Shown: positions 30,809 through 48,524 of the stretch, piece by piece
Layout of the letters: each line of letters opens with the position of its first letter
Position numbering within the stretch: position 1 is the stretch's first letter
Virus record (IMG/VR): IMGVR_UViG_3300050821_006825
Span: 1-51,740 of that record
Direction: 5' to 3' (one strand)
From: a virus
Length of the DNA stretch: 51,740 nt
Notes under the pieces: model-generated
Told to the model about the DNA's origin: nothing
Seen by the model: the letters and a program-made list of their open reading frames with translations, nothing else
Database searches by the model: none
Program-made: the position numbers and the translations under genes

Positions 30809-31026
30809 TTTCGCGCATCCAAAGCGTCCGTTTGGGCCATTTCAATCCAACCCTTGATATGCCTTAGTTCAGTCTGCACTGGATCGCTGTGATCGTAACG
30901 ACCCACCCCATTACAATCGTCACCAAGATCATAGGCACGACGGATGAAATCCACAGCCTTCAATCCATTGATCTTTAGTGGCAGTCTCGCCTCTGTTGCT
31001 AGTAGTCCGTTAGGTTTGTCACTCAT
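30805..31026 (-). CDS. Hypothetical protein
   Basis: A 73-residue protein. ATG 31026 overlaps the HNH stop (ATGAGTGA) and is preferred over ATG 31050. A TGCTATACT promoter-like element lies at 31071-31063 inside the HNH gene, so this gene and recA may have a secondary promoter. The sequence 'ARLPLKINGLKAVDFIRRAYDLGDDC' suggests a compact mixed fold. Function unknown. Confidence 0.6.
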   Translation of the reverse strand: MSDKPNGLLATEARLPLKINGLKAVDFIRRAYDLGDDCNGVGRYDHSDPVQTELRHIKGWIEMAQTDALDARK

Positions 31027-31438
31027 TACAATCCAATCTCTCTGGAGCATACAAGTATAGCATCTCTTCAGCCCAAGCTACCTTGTCGCTAATACGCTGT
31101 CCAGCAGGGTGCGATGTGTTCCATAGCTCAAGGTTATCAATTCGATTATCTGTTTTGACGCCATTTTTGTGATGTACCTCCTCAGACCGTAGTAGAGGGC
31201 GACCGATATGTTGAGCCATGATAACTCGATGTTCGCCTACTTTCTTTCCGTTGATCGTGATCGCCCGGTAGCCCTCTTTGGTAATAGTACCGGGAATGCG
31301 ACGTTCACCCTTGCGTCGTAGCGGCGTTATCTCTTTGTAGAGTTTCCACTGATAATAGTGACCTTTACAGTATCCCTTAGCTAGTGTCGGGAGATCGCAG
31401 TTAGGCGCTTGGCATATGTCTGATTGTCGTTTTCTCAT
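31019..31438 (-). CDS. HNH endonuclease with N-terminal zinc knuckle (homing type)
   Basis: A 139-residue protein. One N-terminal knuckle ('ICQAPNCDLPTLAKGYCKGHY') is followed by an HNH_3 core with intact HH ('HRVIMAQHIGRPL', '[20 protein letters not shown]'). It is a paralogue of the protein at 26483-27016, with an almost identical C-terminal 'SHPAGQR..DKVAWAEE' segment. It sits immediately downstream of dnaE, a frequent homing endonuclease location. Confidence 0.8.
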   Translation of the reverse strand: MRKRQSDICQAPNCDLPTLAKGYCKGHYYQWKLYKEITPLRRKGERRIPGTITKEGYRAITINGKKVGEHRVIMAQHIGRPLLRSEEVHHKNGVKTDNRIDNLELWNTSHPAGQRISDKVAWAEEMLYLYAPERLDCNE

Positions 31439-31461: not shown

Positions 31462-34400
31462 TCAGGTAAGAATCTTGCCTGTCTCAAAGTGATAACCCTC
31501 GCCGCGTCTCTCGGATGGAGGGGACTGCCGTACCGTGAAGATGCCGACGTTGTGTGGCTTGAAGAGAAACTTGTTGGATGGCCACTTGTTAGAGAAGCAG
31601 GCGAATGACAACTCGTGCCTGCCGCACTCTATCGTGATAATGCCCATCGCCTTTCCAGTGGCTTTGACCTTTGTTGGCTTGACGTTCGTAATGATACCAG
31701 GTAGGCGGTAGTCCCTGTACCTCTTAGACATCGGGACCTCCTCACCGTCGTCTTCGTACTCCCACTCAATGGCGTGCTCTGGGTCGGCTTCTTTATCTTC
31801 CCACGAGAGCACCGCAGCATCCCATGAGTCGCACTGCTCAAGAGTCTCCTCATGCTCGGCCAGGATTTCCTCGGTGTTGTCGGTGAGGATCACGCTCAGT
31901 AGCTCAAGCTCGCATTTCTGCTTGGTCTTGAGATCCACAGCGGTTTCTTCCAGGTCATCCCAGGCTCCGGCTGCGTGGATCAGCGAGAGCTTTTTCTCAT
32001 TGAGCATCTGTTTCGGTGACTTCCAGTCCGCCGGATACGGAGTGCCCTCTGCCAACGCCTGTTTCTTGCCCGCCAGCGCGATGTCGTTGTAGCACTGCAA
32101 CATCTCCTCGAATGCCTCAGGAGTTTCGATCTCGAATTTCTCCTCGTCGCGCAACGTGACCAAGTACTCTCCGCTCGTGCCAACGCCCTTGACATCCCCG
32201 AACCCGAAGTAGATATTGCCATCATGCACGTCTACCTGAGCCTGCGAGTACCGGATGTCAGGCGGTAGTACCTTGATCCCAGCACGCCTAGCCTCTTTGA
32301 TGTATTCGGGTGTCAGTTCAGCACGCTTTTGCTTGTCCACGGTGCGAATGCAGGCGATGTAGAACTCCTGTGGCCCGTGGTACTTGGCGTACAGGCAGCG
32401 GAACCCAATGATCGCGTAAGCGACCGCGTGGGACTTGTTGAAGGAGTAGCTAGCGAACCCTTCAATGCTCTTCCACACTTCAGTCGCGGACTCCTTGGTG
32501 AATCCTTTCTCGATCGCGGTCGTGAGGAAGCCCTTTTCATCCCACTCATTGAATCCATCGAAGATTTCGCTCAGCTTCTCCGGATGCTTCTTGCCCAGGA
32601 TCTTTCGCACGGCATCCGCGTCGCCTAGCGAGTACCCAAGGGCACCCATGAACCTGATGATCTGCTCCTGGTACACGAAGAGTCCGTATGTCGGTTTGAG
32701 GATCTGTTCCAGCATCGGGTGCGGATAGGTGATCTCACTGCGCCCCTCCATGCGGGCTATGTAACGATTCGGCACACCATCTCGCTGCGGGCCAGGTCGG
32801 TTCAACGAACCCAAGACTGCTAGCTCCTCAATGGAGCGTGGTTTCAGTTTTTCGGCGAGTTTCTTGCCCGATGGTGTCTCGACCTGGAAGACGCCGGAGA
32901 CAAACCCTTCCTCTAGTAGGTCCCACATCTCCTCGGGGTGGTCCTGAAGGTCGAGGCCCGACCACTCAGTCTCGACGCCTTTGGCCTTCATGAGTTTGTC
33001 CCACTCGGCTAGCGTGTCGAGCGTCTTGAGCCCCAGGACATCAAGCTTGAGGAGCATGCGCTTCTCGACCGTGGACATGGGGAACTGCGTAGCCGGGATG
33101 CCATCCTTGCCTCCGCGACGGTAAGCGGGAGCGTAGTCAGATAGATCGATGTCTGCGACCACGATACCCGATGCGTGGATACCGTAGTTGCTGTTACGGG
33201 AGCAGGCGTGTTCACACATCTCCACGAACTTGGTACGTTTCCCTTGAACAACCGAGTCCTTGCCGCTCTCGATCCACTCTTGGATTTCTTCGCCTACTTT
33301 GTCACCCTCGGGGTTCATCTCCGTGGAGCTATTGACATAGATCACCTTGTCAGGCTCGAACTCAGGGCTCCAACCGATCTGTTCGTGGCCGTGGATTTCG
33401 ATGTCCTTGGTCTGCTTGACGATCTTCTTCAGTTGCTCCATTTCCACATGATCGATCTCGCATGCCATCGCTAGCTTCTCGATGACAGCCACAGGCTTCA
33501 TGCGAGTGATGGTGCCGATGGAGCACACGCGCTCATAGCCGATGCGGTCGATCAGGTAGTCAAGGATCTCGCCGCGTCGTGACTTGGCGAAGTCAGTGTC
33601 GATGTCGGGGAAGCCGTCGGTGCGCCCCTTGTTCCAGAAGCGCTCGAAGTACAAGTCGTAGTGCAGGGGGTCCACGTCGGTGATACCGAGCGCATAGGCC
33701 ACGATCGCACCGGCAGACGACCCTCGCCCAGGGCCGACATTGATCCCTTCCATTTTGCAGAACTGGATCACGTCCCATGCCAGGAGGAAGTAGTGCTCCA
33801 GGTGGTCCTCCATGAGGACTTCCATCTCATGGATGGCTTTCTCCACGGCCTCTACCTCGTGCTCCGTTCCGGCGTAGATCCGTTCGATGCCTTCCGACAC
33901 GAGCCGTGTGAAGAGCGTGGCTACGTCCTCTCCTGGGTCATCGAGCCACGGGCAGTCGCCCGGCACGAAGAGGGGCATGTGCGCTTTACCTACGTCTGGC
34001 AGGTGGGCGTCAGCGGCTTCGCCGATCTCGTACGTGTTGGCGATAGCCTCATCGACCACAGACTCAGGCAGGTAGCCAAGATTCTCGCGTACGGTCTTCT
34101 CATCCTTGATGCACAGGGCTCCGGGCGGGTGCCACATCTTGCGATCCTCGACCGGGGTGTAGATCGACTGTCGCGTCTGCGCAGCGATGTACATATCGTG
34201 CTCCTCGTACTGATCCGGGCGGGCATAGTGACCGTCGTCCCCGTACGTGATCTTGACACCCCGCTCTTGCGCAGCATCCACGACAAGTTCGTTGATGAGG
34301 CGCGGAGTAACAACCACATCCTCATCATCCTCTGAGTCTGAGTCGCGCCACTCGACATCGCCGGGGTACGTGGTGATCTCCATGCGGAAGTTGTCGCCCA

Positions 34401-34797
34401 GGTTGTCGAGGTACCAATTGAGCATCGTGCTATCGCCTTTGAGCAGACCTTGTGGCACAAGCCCCAGCGGGCACGCCGACGTAAAGATGATCCCCTCCTT
34501 GTACTTCACGATGTCATCGTTGGTGACTCGCCCAACGTGATGGAAGTGATCCCGATCGGAGGTTGCGTTAGTCAGTCGCCAGAGGTTGCGCAGACCTTCA
34601 TCGGTCATGGCCAGGGCGATTAGGTGCGCCTGGTCACGCTCGTTTTTCTTGAGGTCATCGAATTTCACCCCGTGGTATAGCTCCGCCCCGAACACAGGGT
34701 TGAGGCCACGGCTGCGCATGGCTTTGTCGAACTCGATGTGGCCCGCGACTACCCCGTGATCGGTCAGCCCGCAAAACGGGCACTTGATCTCAAGCAT
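31462..34797 (-). CDS. dnaE: DNA polymerase III alpha subunit (C-family replicative polymerase)
   Basis: 1111 residues from ATG 34797. The PHP domain begins abruptly at 'CGLTDHGVVAGHIEF', lacking the usual first strand with its His-x-His motif. The polymerase core has 'VGPGRGSSAGAIVAYALG' and the catalytic triad in 'FPDIDTDF' (Asp398, Asp400, Asp402), then 'YSFNKSHAVAYAI' in the fingers. A C-terminal OB-like region follows. The missing N-terminus is encoded just upstream in the same frame (from ATG 34875) but is broken by a TGA at 34839-34837. The enzyme would be made by reinitiation, readthrough or splicing. It is the phage replicative polymerase. Confidence 0.9.
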   Translation of the reverse strand: MLEIKCPFCGLTDHGVVAGHIEFDKAMRSRGLNPVFGAELYHGVKFDDLKKNERDQAHLIALAMTDEGLRNLWRLTNATSDRDHFHHVGRVTNDDIVKYKEGIIFTSACPLGLVPQGLLKGDSTMLNWYLDNLGDNFRMEITTYPGDVEWRDSDSEDDEDVVVTPRLINELVVDAAQERGVKITYGDDGHYARPDQYEEHDMYIAAQTRQSIYTPVEDRKMWHPPGALCIKDEKTVRENLGYLPESVVDEAIANTYEIGEAADAHLPDVGKAHMPLFVPGDCPWLDDPGEDVATLFTRLVSEGIERIYAGTEHEVEAVEKAIHEMEVLMEDHLEHYFLLAWDVIQFCKMEGINVGPGRGSSAGAIVAYALGITDVDPLHYDLYFERFWNKGRTDGFPDIDTDFAKSRRGEILDYLIDRIGYERVCSIGTITRMKPVAVIEKLAMACEIDHVEMEQLKKIVKQTKDIEIHGHEQIGWSPEFEPDKVIYVNSSTEMNPEGDKVGEEIQEWIESGKDSVVQGKRTKFVEMCEHACSRNSNYGIHASGIVVADIDLSDYAPAYRRGGKDGIPATQFPMSTVEKRMLLKLDVLGLKTLDTLAEWDKLMKAKGVETEWSGLDLQDHPEEMWDLLEEGFVSGVFQVETPSGKKLAEKLKPRSIEELAVLGSLNRPGPQRDGVPNRYIARMEGRSEITYPHPMLEQILKPTYGLFVYQEQIIRFMGALGYSLGDADAVRKILGKKHPEKLSEIFDGFNEWDEKGFLTTAIEKGFTKESATEVWKSIEGFASYSFNKSHAVAYAIIGFRCLYAKYHGPQEFYIACIRTVDKQKRAELTPEYIKEARRAGIKVLPPDIRYSQAQVDVHDGNIYFGFGDVKGVGTSGEYLVTLRDEEKFEIETPEAFEEMLQCYNDIALAGKKQALAEGTPYPADWKSPKQMLNEKKLSLIHAAGAWDDLEETAVDLKTKQKCELELLSVILTDNTEEILAEHEETLEQCDSWDAAVLSWEDKEADPEHAIEWEYEDDGEEVPMSKRYRDYRLPGIITNVKPTKVKATGKAMGIITIECGRHELSFACFSNKWPSNKFLFKPHNVGIFTVRQSPPSERRGEGYHFETGKILT

Positions 34798-34875
34798 GCG
34801 CTCCGCGATCTCATCAACCGTGGACCAGCCGTCGAGTCAAAGGGACGAGTACTCGCTATGAACGTGGAGTGACAT
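34798..34875 (-). other. dnaE N-terminal segment with in-frame TGA
   Basis: Read leftward from ATG 34875 in the dnaE frame, the DNA encodes MSLHVHSEYSSL, TGA, LDGWSTVDEIAER and then dnaE. This is exactly the conserved start of DnaE PHP domains, with a 2-codon insertion (TTTGAC-like) that includes the stop. The TGA is followed by C, the leakiest context. It overlaps the last six codons of the endonuclease gene upstream. Two more copies of the HSEYSSL coding stretch lie at 35758-35781 and 35574-35596. Confidence 0.75.
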
Positions 34876-35545
34876 CGCCCCTGATCACCCCCTCACACAA
34901 AGCAACAAACTCTGCTATGTGGCCCTTTGTGGGTCTTTGATCGATGACGTAGAGAGGGTGACCATAGATATCTTGGAAGAGCTTCCTCTTCTCTGCCTTA
35001 CCGGGCTTATCCCAACCTGTGATCTCCACGTAGATATCCTTGCCATTGAGACGAATGTCTGGGCAGTAGGTTCCTTGACCATCCAGGTCAAATCTAATCG
35101 CCTCATACTCAAACTCTACGTTAGCAGCTTTGAGAGCAAGCAGGTAGTCTCGCTCCCACGTTGAGCGTACCCAGAACCCAAGATCCTCTACAAACTGGCC
35201 GTGGCCCCAACCTCGGTAGTTGGTAGGAGTGCGACCATAGAAAGGGTTGCTCGTCGGGTCTTTAGCGTACCGATCCTTTTGAGCTTGAGATATGATCGCC
35301 TTTTGCTTATCGGTCATTGGATCACGCGGGCGATCTTGCGCCAAACATGACTTAGAGCAATACTTTCGCCATGTCGCGTGGCTCGGAACTACTTCGAAAG
35401 TGTTGCTGCATTCTTTGCGAGCGCATTCCAATACAATCTTCTGTACCCGTGGCTTATCCAGCCAACGCAAATGCAAAGCAAGCCCGGCACCTGATTTGAA
35501 GGTATGTCCACAATGATCGCAGGTCTTTGGATTTTGTTTTCTCAT
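34856..35545 (-). CDS. PD-(D/E)XK / Vsr-like homing endonuclease candidate
   Basis: About 229 residues from ATG 35545 (a GTG at 35593 would extend it by 16). The N-terminus has zinc-finger pairs: 'CDHCGHTF' with later His, and 'CARKECSNTF' with 'KYCSKSC'. The C-terminal ~110 residues look like a nuclease: 'STWERDYLLAL', 'TYCPDIRL', 'IYVEITGW', resembling the E...D...E-x-T/K core of Vsr-type homing enzymes. It lies between repeated copies of the dnaE start, suggesting mobility at that target. The nuclease family is inferred from motif shape. Confidence 0.65.
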   Translation of the reverse strand: MRKQNPKTCDHCGHTFKSGAGLALHLRWLDKPRVQKIVLECARKECSNTFEVVPSHATWRKYCSKSCLAQDRPRDPMTDKQKAIISQAQKDRYAKDPTSNPFYGRTPTNYRGWGHGQFVEDLGFWVRSTWERDYLLALKAANVEFEYEAIRFDLDGQGTYCPDIRLNGKDIYVEITGWDKPGKAEKRKLFQDIYGHPLYVIDQRPTKGHIAEFVALCEGVIRGDVTPRS

Positions 35546-35592
35546 AACTATTAGATTACAGAACTTGACAGTATTCCAGCGAAGAATACTCA

Positions 35593-35796
35593 CTATCTAT
35601 CCTGAGGGATCACTACAAACGTGCGTCGGGGATAAACACAACCATTCGCTTTATCGTTGGTCGTTGGATATCGACATTTGGGAAACTCAATCACATCTCC
35701 GTCGCCTGTAAAGCTGATCCCATGCACGGGACACTCATGGGCTGTCCATTTACGTTGATCGAGAGAGGAGTACTCGCTATGTACGTGAAGACTCAT
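35593..35796 (-). CDS. Short ORF starting with the dnaE N-terminal sequence
   Basis: 67 residues. It begins MSLHVHSEYSSLD, the conserved first PHP strand of DnaE. After residue 13 it changes to an unrelated Cys-containing sequence ('AHECPVHG', 'FPKCRYP', 'GCVYP'), possibly a zinc-binding unit. The upstream gene's stop lies inside its codons 5-6, the same overlap seen at 34875. It is best read as the original 5' end of dnaE cut by an insertion, or as a first exon. Whether the 67-residue product is made is unknown. Confidence 0.55.
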   Translation of the reverse strand: MSLHVHSEYSSLDQRKWTAHECPVHGISFTGDGDVIEFPKCRYPTTNDKANGCVYPRRTFVVIPQDR

Positions 35797-35995
35797 AGTC
35801 TATCCAATCACTCCAGTAGGGGTTGAGGCGATTAGCCCAGTGCATCAGCGCAAATTTCTGAAGAACGTGGATAGCAGGGATTCCCTCGTTGACGAAGTTG
35901 TGAGGGTTGCCGTCATAGAGATCACGAATAGCATCCATGACCTCTACCGTTGCGTCTATGACGCGCTGCTCCTTAGGTGTTAGCTGTGAGTCCAT
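35777..35995 (-). CDS. Hypothetical protein
   Basis: A 72-residue protein overlapping the RNase H gene by 23 bases and the next ORF by 20 bases. It is helical ('EQRVIDATVEVMDAIRDLYDG') with an aromatic C-terminal part ('MHWANRLNPYWSDWIDYES'). No family recognised. The overlaps support it as part of the leftward operon. Confidence 0.6.
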   Translation of the reverse strand: MDSQLTPKEQRVIDATVEVMDAIRDLYDGNPHNFVNEGIPAIHVLQKFALMHWANRLNPYWSDWIDYESSRT

Positions 35996-36410
35996 TCTTC
36001 CTTGCGTTGCCTGCTAGCTCATCGACTAGCTGATTGTAGTGGCTTTCGTGGTGGCCCTTGACCCACACGAACTCAACGTACTTGTGCTGCTCGATAGCAT
36101 CATCGATCTCGAACCACAGATCCTCGTTCTTTTTGCGTGCCCGCTGGCGGTCCATCGCCCCCAACCCAACGTACTCGCTGTCGCTGTAGACAAGGACATT
36201 GCACGGGCCAAGAGTCTCGACCAAATGGTTCAAGCCCTCGACCCATGCCTGCATCTCCATGCGATTATTCGTCGTGTCAGGGACATAGCCGGAGCCAATC
36301 TCCTCACCGCCGAAGCAATCAATGGCGACCCATGCCCATCCACCGGAGCCGTCCTTGTAGTAGGACGACCCATCGGTGAATAGAGCAATGCCTTTCTGCG
36401 GATCAAGCAC
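35973..36410 (-). CDS. rnhA: Ribonuclease H
   Basis: A 145-residue protein, GTG start. All type 1 RNase H motifs are present: 'LFTDGSS' (Asp13), 'NNRMEMQAW' (Glu), 'VLVYSDSEYV' (Asp), 'FVWVKGHHESHYNQLVDELA' (His loop and final Asp). Length matches the family (about 150). It would remove RNA primers laid down by the primase gene nearby. Confidence 0.9.
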   Translation of the reverse strand: MLDPQKGIALFTDGSSYYKDGSGGWAWVAIDCFGGEEIGSGYVPDTTNNRMEMQAWVEGLNHLVETLGPCNVLVYSDSEYVGLGAMDRQRARKKNEDLWFEIDDAIEQHKYVEFVWVKGHHESHYNQLVDELAGNARKNGLTANT

Positions 36411-48301: not shown

Positions 48302-48356
48302 CTCAGTTTCGGAAAAATTTGCCTCGCGTGCATGCGGGGTTTAGCATAAACACCAT

Positions 48357-48439
48357 GCGCTGGTGATGGAATGGCAGACATGCTGGCTTGAGGAGTCAGT
48401 GGGCTTCGGCCCGTGTGGGTTCGACTCCCACTCAGCGTA
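48357..48439 (+). tRNA. tRNA-Leu (anticodon GAG)
   Basis: The acceptor GCGCTGG/TCAGCGT has wobble pairs at both ends. The anticodon loop is TTGAGGA (anticodon 48390-48392). The class II variable arm is GGGC-TTCG-GCCC. The T-arm is GTGGG-TTCGACT-CCCAC. No CCA is encoded. Confidence 0.93.
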
Positions 48440-48524
48440 TCCAGTAAGAAGTTCGGTTGTGAGCGGGAGATAGCTACTCGCAAGAGAAACCGCCCGTGGG
48501 TACTGGTACCGCGACGGGTAGCAT

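Follow-up and report, generated by a model that had tools for sequence, protein, structure and literature searches.

A mobile endonuclease cassette has very probably inserted into dnaE, the gene of the polymerase III alpha subunit, between codons 12 and 13 in this phage. The cassette would consist of a stretch that we call segment B, a degenerate copy of the dnaE start (copy 2), an endonuclease gene and a recoded dnaE start (copy 3), the last of which would refound dnaE at the right edge of the insert while no longer matching the presumed cleavage target. The point of insertion, the recoding, the endonuclease domains and a chain of overlapping ORFs were observed directly in the window, by which we mean the whole 51,740-nt stretch of viral DNA that was analysed, and the empty site in related contigs; the endonuclease probably drove the insertion and targets the codon 12/13 site, and DnaE may now be translated from copy 3. 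A preliminary description of the same DNA had offered three explanations, namely insertion by an element that brings a new 5′ end with it, an undescribed intron or readthrough of a TGA codon. The replacement-end element is strongly supported, by seven empty sites, the synonymous changes in copy 3 and an endonuclease stop codon that lies inside copy 3, while the intron is not.

The start of dnaE is found three times in the window (Table 1). When scored by BLOSUM against MSLHVHSEYSSLD, copy 1 (35796) reached 67, copy 3 (34875) 57 and copy 2 (35612) 36. As the next-best place in the window scored 23 and the maximum in 20 simulated windows was 32, even the weak copy 2 lies beyond chance. The same three copies were returned as one family by an independent repeat finder, and the likeness of copy 2 spans the whole dnaE start, beyond DSEYSSLE alone. 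All three thus stand, with scores far above chance, where the preliminary description had placed them, and two further details that it had claimed can be read from the sequence: copy 3 is followed in the dnaE frame by two extra codons, one of them TGA (the seam is TCC CTT TGA CTC GAC GGC TGG), and the stop of the upstream ORF falls within the H-S codons of the first and last copies, as a TAG in CATAGC. In copy 2, the TAG closing a 67-aa ORF overlaps the GTG of the endonuclease ORF. The frame from copy 1 leaves dnaE after MSLHVHSEYSSLD and runs for 54 further codons to the TAG at 35593, and the dnaE start, the 67-aa ORF, the endonuclease and copy 3 form a series of overlapping ORFs. Copy 3 reads MSLHVHSEYSSL-TGA-LDGWSTVDEIAERMLEIK, that is, TGA and then LDGWSTVDEIAER after the copy itself, followed by the remainder of a normal polymerase III alpha subunit.

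Table 1 Features of the dnaE region and related elements, with positions in the window.
Feature	Positions	Strand	Remarks
RNase H-like gene, upstream of dnaE	36410-35973	minus	
72-aa ORF after the RNase H-like gene	35995-35777	minus	TAG stop overlaps copy 1 (ATG 35796)
Copy 1, dnaE codons 1-13 (MSLHVHSEYSSLD)	35758-35796	minus	The phage's own start, intact
67-aa ORF beginning at copy 1	35796-35593	minus	Reads on instead of DnaE
Segment B (145 nt), separating copy 1 from copy 2	35613-35757	minus	No stop in the dnaE frame (QRKWTAHECPVHG...); rich in Cys and His
Copy 2, degenerate dnaE start (*SLRIDSEYSSLE)	35574-35612	minus	Contains AGGA, a TAG stop and the GTG where the endonuclease ORF starts
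Endonuclease ORF, 245 aa	34856-35593	minus	GTG start in copy 2, TAG stop inside copy 3
Copy 3, recoded dnaE codons 1-12	34840-34875	minus	ATG at 34875, in frame with dnaE
CTT TGA CTC (Leu-stop-Leu), candidate stop-hop site	34834-34842	minus	
Rest of dnaE from Leu12/Asp13	31462-34836	minus	PHP, polymerase and finger domains intact
Phage tRNA-Leu, anticodon GAG	48356-48443	plus	Can decode CUU as well as CUC; candidate tRNA for a hop

Among viral contigs, seven distinct relatives each carry a single uninterrupted MSLHVHSE[YF]S[SA]LDGW(S). The empty site seen in 7/7 of these contigs places the insertion point at codons 12/13 and speaks against a natural dnaE start at MLEIKCPF, which the preliminary description had named as evidence that would refute it. 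The first 146 residues of DnaE have matches in 790 phage records, 766 of them over at least 80% of the length, so phage DnaE normally includes this N-terminal segment; among GTDB genomes, no dnaE relatives were confirmed. The insert measures about 927 nt and has CTCGA at each edge (35763-35759 and 34836-34832), a pair that could be a 5-nt target duplication from the repair of a staggered cut, or just the Leu-Asp codons on both sides. The cassette is present in one assembled genome only, its ends as given here are deduced from one junction, and the seven related records do not have the endonuclease at any other place.

Compared over 36 nt with L002-L004, the three nearest relatives, copy 1 has 4-7 nt differences and copy 3 has 7-9. 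The Ser2 codon tells the native from the carried copies most clearly: copy 1 shares AGY with every relative, whereas copies 2 and 3 have TCN. Eight of the 36 nt distinguish copy 3 from copy 1 with no amino-acid change, an outcome reached by one in 400,000 random sets of eight changes, and because all eight differences are synonymous copy 3 has been selected as protein-coding dnaE sequence. In copy 2, 8 of 12 residues are kept despite 17 nt differences (4 in 200,000 random trials). This retention exceeds what random trials give, so copy 2 descends from a coding copy, and it was altered later, where the ribosome site and the start of the endonuclease ORF now lie. The TCN codon that copies 2 and 3 share at Ser2 fits an arrival of copy 2, the endonuclease and copy 3 together from elsewhere. 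We infer that segment B arrived as a single block with copy 2, the endonuclease and copy 3, and that the native start, copy 1, was interrupted only recently.

The gene within the insert, put forward earlier as a putative endonuclease gene, proved to have the makeup of a homing endonuclease of the PD-(D/E)xK, EndoI-like kind with NUMOD3, combining DNA-binding motifs with a nuclease domain: it encodes a zinc finger, a second Cys cluster, a NUMOD3-like motif and a T7-EndoI-like PD-(D/E)xK domain. Homologues suggest that its core begins at the ATG at 35545. PHROG resolvase and endonuclease families match approximately residues 135-216 of the window protein (E 1.6e-8 and 4.2e-8), and gp38 of HCTV-5, a protein of 241 aa whose gene adjoins thymidylate synthase and whose NUMOD3 motif scores above the Pfam cut-off, matches residues 90-217 (E 2e-5). 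The window endonuclease had no match above the cut-off in Pfam, and its NUMOD3 assignment is based on alignment to HCTV-5 gp38 and to the entry L027, in which repeated NUMOD3-like motifs run into the same VRSTWER...YCPD...IEVKG nuclease region. Kuja_0500 of a Vibrio phage, which matches Phage_endo_I below the Pfam cut-off, has weak similarity to the window protein (E 3), yet its zinc-finger and nuclease positions align. In total, relatives of the endonuclease were found at 19 viral loci. The catalytic set is incomplete, as the PD-(D/E)xK lysine, present in all 13 relatives aligned, is replaced by Thr in the window protein (EITG here versus ExKG in 13/13). The resident copy may therefore be inactive, as would be expected once an element has filled its site. 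A single-sequence AlphaFold model of the endonuclease had a pLDDT of 43, too low to be of use.

That the insert of 927 nt splices itself out as an intron, so that copy 1 (...SSL) is joined to DGWSTV, is highly improbable. Such splicing would yield a normal DnaE, and introns often house endonucleases, but a covariance-model search for the undescribed intron of the preliminary description gave no group I or II catalytic core: a permissive Rfam scan of 34600-36000 returned nothing at E<=10, whereas the T4 td intron, placed in a piece of equal length as positive control, scored E 1.8e-8. Only about 20 nt separate the end of the ORF from the dnaE frame, which leaves little room for a 3′ core. Group I introns have a U at the end of the 5′ exon and a G at the end of the intron, and no junction that restores the sequence offers both; nor would there be a reason for a recoded exon copy inside an intron to be synonymous. 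An intein, which would have to be read in one frame with the host gene on either side, was also considered and rejected, the frame being broken by stops at 35595-35593, 34858-34856 and 34839-34837.

Translation from copy 3 would meet the TGA at the seam, an ordinary stop codon in this phage (17 of 38 genes). We consider it almost an even prospect that the TGA is passed in some form, hop and readthrough taken together. In a hop, peptidyl-tRNA-Leu would move from CUU to CUC over UGA, restoring the exact wild-type DnaE; the alternative passage would be UGA readthrough. CTT TGA CTC has the composition of a translational bypass site, with a take-off codon, an adjacent stop and a landing codon for the same tRNA. 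This Leu-stop-Leu match is partly built in, because both Leu codons derive from codon 12, and as it arises from joining two versions of that codon it is weak evidence for hopping. No RNA structure near the TGA that might stimulate passage folded better than shuffles (z -0.35 and -0.82); the whole insert folded somewhat better than its shuffles (z -1.58), which we do not consider meaningful. It is doubtful at best that the cassette is the phage counterpart of T4 mobA/gene 60, with its target protected by recoding and by a 6-nt insert whose in-frame stop is hopped, and equally doubtful, within the same reading, that tRNA-Leu GAG hops at CUU UGA CUC to give exact wild-type DnaE. An RF2-like +1 frameshift at CTTTGAC was rejected, as the +1 frame gives a short out-of-frame tail and no possible DnaE. 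A search of other viral contigs for YSxL-TGA-LDGW produced two matches, both by chance and in a frame full of stops.

After the same insertion, readthrough by the phage or host tRNA-Trp or another near-cognate tRNA would give a DnaE with two additional residues (SSL-x-L-DGW), not the neatest product when compared with the exact wild-type sequence of a hop. UGA followed by C is a leaky context and the phage encodes a tRNA-Trp CCA, but the two residues would stand directly ahead of a conserved Asp, at a spacing that is invariant in all relatives, and no stimulatory structure was found near the TGA, so that we regard this route as distinctly unlikely. Possible, although still unlikely, is that copy 3 serves as a 12-codon leader ending at the TGA and that DnaE restarts at Met25 (34797), where the plain dnaE ORF begins. 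Met25 is the only in-frame ATG, GTG or TTG soon past the TGA (39 nt downstream), GGAG stands 3 nt upstream of it, and reinitiation across some 40 nt happens in operons. However, that GGAG-ATG spacing is short, Met25 is internal in all relatives, and the synonymous-only divergence of copy 3 shows that its amino-acid sequence mattered. A restart would also lose the first PHP strand, and with it two His and one Asp that belong to the conserved PHP site. In an alignment with bacterial polymerase III, these residues of codons 1-13 fall on conserved PHP positions, so losing them should be costly; Taq entry 3e0d has Asn at the aligned position of the Asp, presumably because this metal ligand was mutated there. 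Finally, the insertion may simply have disabled or crippled dnaE in one genome, be it in a dying lineage, in a mixed population or under complementation. We judge this unlikely: the stop does interrupt an essential-looking gene from one metagenomic assembly, and an endonuclease without its usual lysine suggests decay, but past the insert 1,111 codons of dnaE are still open, the frame of copy 3 is preserved and sequencing errors do not typically insert 6 nt in frame. Synonymous and nonsynonymous changes on the dnaE branches number 84/39 in the window lineage and 65/28 in L002, and since this reveals no relaxed selection, dnaE is in use or was until very recently.

Judged by analogy, the closest working parallel to the inserted cassette is the mORF of fungal mitochondria, of which the dnaE cassette would be the mirror image at the gene start. 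The mORFs form gene hybrids in Allomyces atp6 and in Glomus atp6, atp9, cox2 and nad3, placing an endonuclease gene in a conserved gene together with a gene end that is diverged in DNA and conserved in protein, and the native end resembles that of relatives while the carried end does not (PMC3630166). The dnaE starts show the same pattern, with a carried end conserved as protein and diverged as DNA and a native end like that of relatives. The mORFs replace the 3′ end in mitochondria, whereas the dnaE cassette replaces a 5′ end in a phage, and it has a nuclease of another family, an extra degenerate copy and a stop at the seam. The T4 mobA/gene 60 cassette, with its 50-nt translational bypass (PMC5009743, PMC3014915), likewise has a phage homing-type endonuclease beside an insert in an essential replication gene, and a stop right after the take-off codon with a landing codon for the same tRNA. 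In dnaE, in contrast, the gap is 6 nt, in frame and without stimulators found, the start is duplicated where the T4 gene is split, and the bypass is a candidate only. Free-standing homing endonucleases of the seg/mob type are similarly intronless, share the strand of the conserved gene that they adjoin and overlap their neighbours, but are mostly found between genes, while the dnaE endonuclease lies inside one and brings a replacement start (PMC2988022). Synthetic stop hops share the matched codons around a stop, with nine nucleotides giving one amino acid; a 2016 review describes them in constructs only and says that no natural in-frame case is known (PMC5009743).

We found no phage dnaE case of this kind in the literature. 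Endonuclease elements with a replacement end are known from fungal mitochondria, with the 3′ end in the cases found, and a phage element that gives a replicative polymerase gene a new 5′ end broadens their range to viruses and to gene starts, where access for the ribosome must be rebuilt too. If DnaE is made by a hop over the TGA, an event so far seen in constructs alone would have a natural example, the first in-frame stop hop in nature known to us, and endonuclease invasion would be tied to ribosomal bypass for a second time, T4 gene 60 being the earlier instance.

Segment B may be what is left of a previous insertion into this codon; we found no close relatives of it, the only match being a weak, Rieske-like one in its Cys/His residues. 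The space between the RNase H-like gene and dnaE (35777-35995, minus strand), also compared in L002, L003, L010 and L012, holds different small ORFs or none in nearly every relative, a pattern of gene content suggesting a hot spot of gain and loss. Directly downstream of dnaE lies an HNH_3 endonuclease gene (31019-31438, minus strand), which the close relative L002 lacks there, so that dnaE has a lineage-specific endonuclease gene on either side. The GC content is 55%, and no TTA occurs among the 13,825 codons of 38 genes, which include 1,076 Leu codons; TTA is similarly absent in phages of Streptomyces-like hosts. An array of 14 tRNA genes ends in a predicted phage tmRNA (51236-51597, plus strand), whose tag, GTDDTLAIPASFQDGSTISGGLSAREATLALV, is unusually long.
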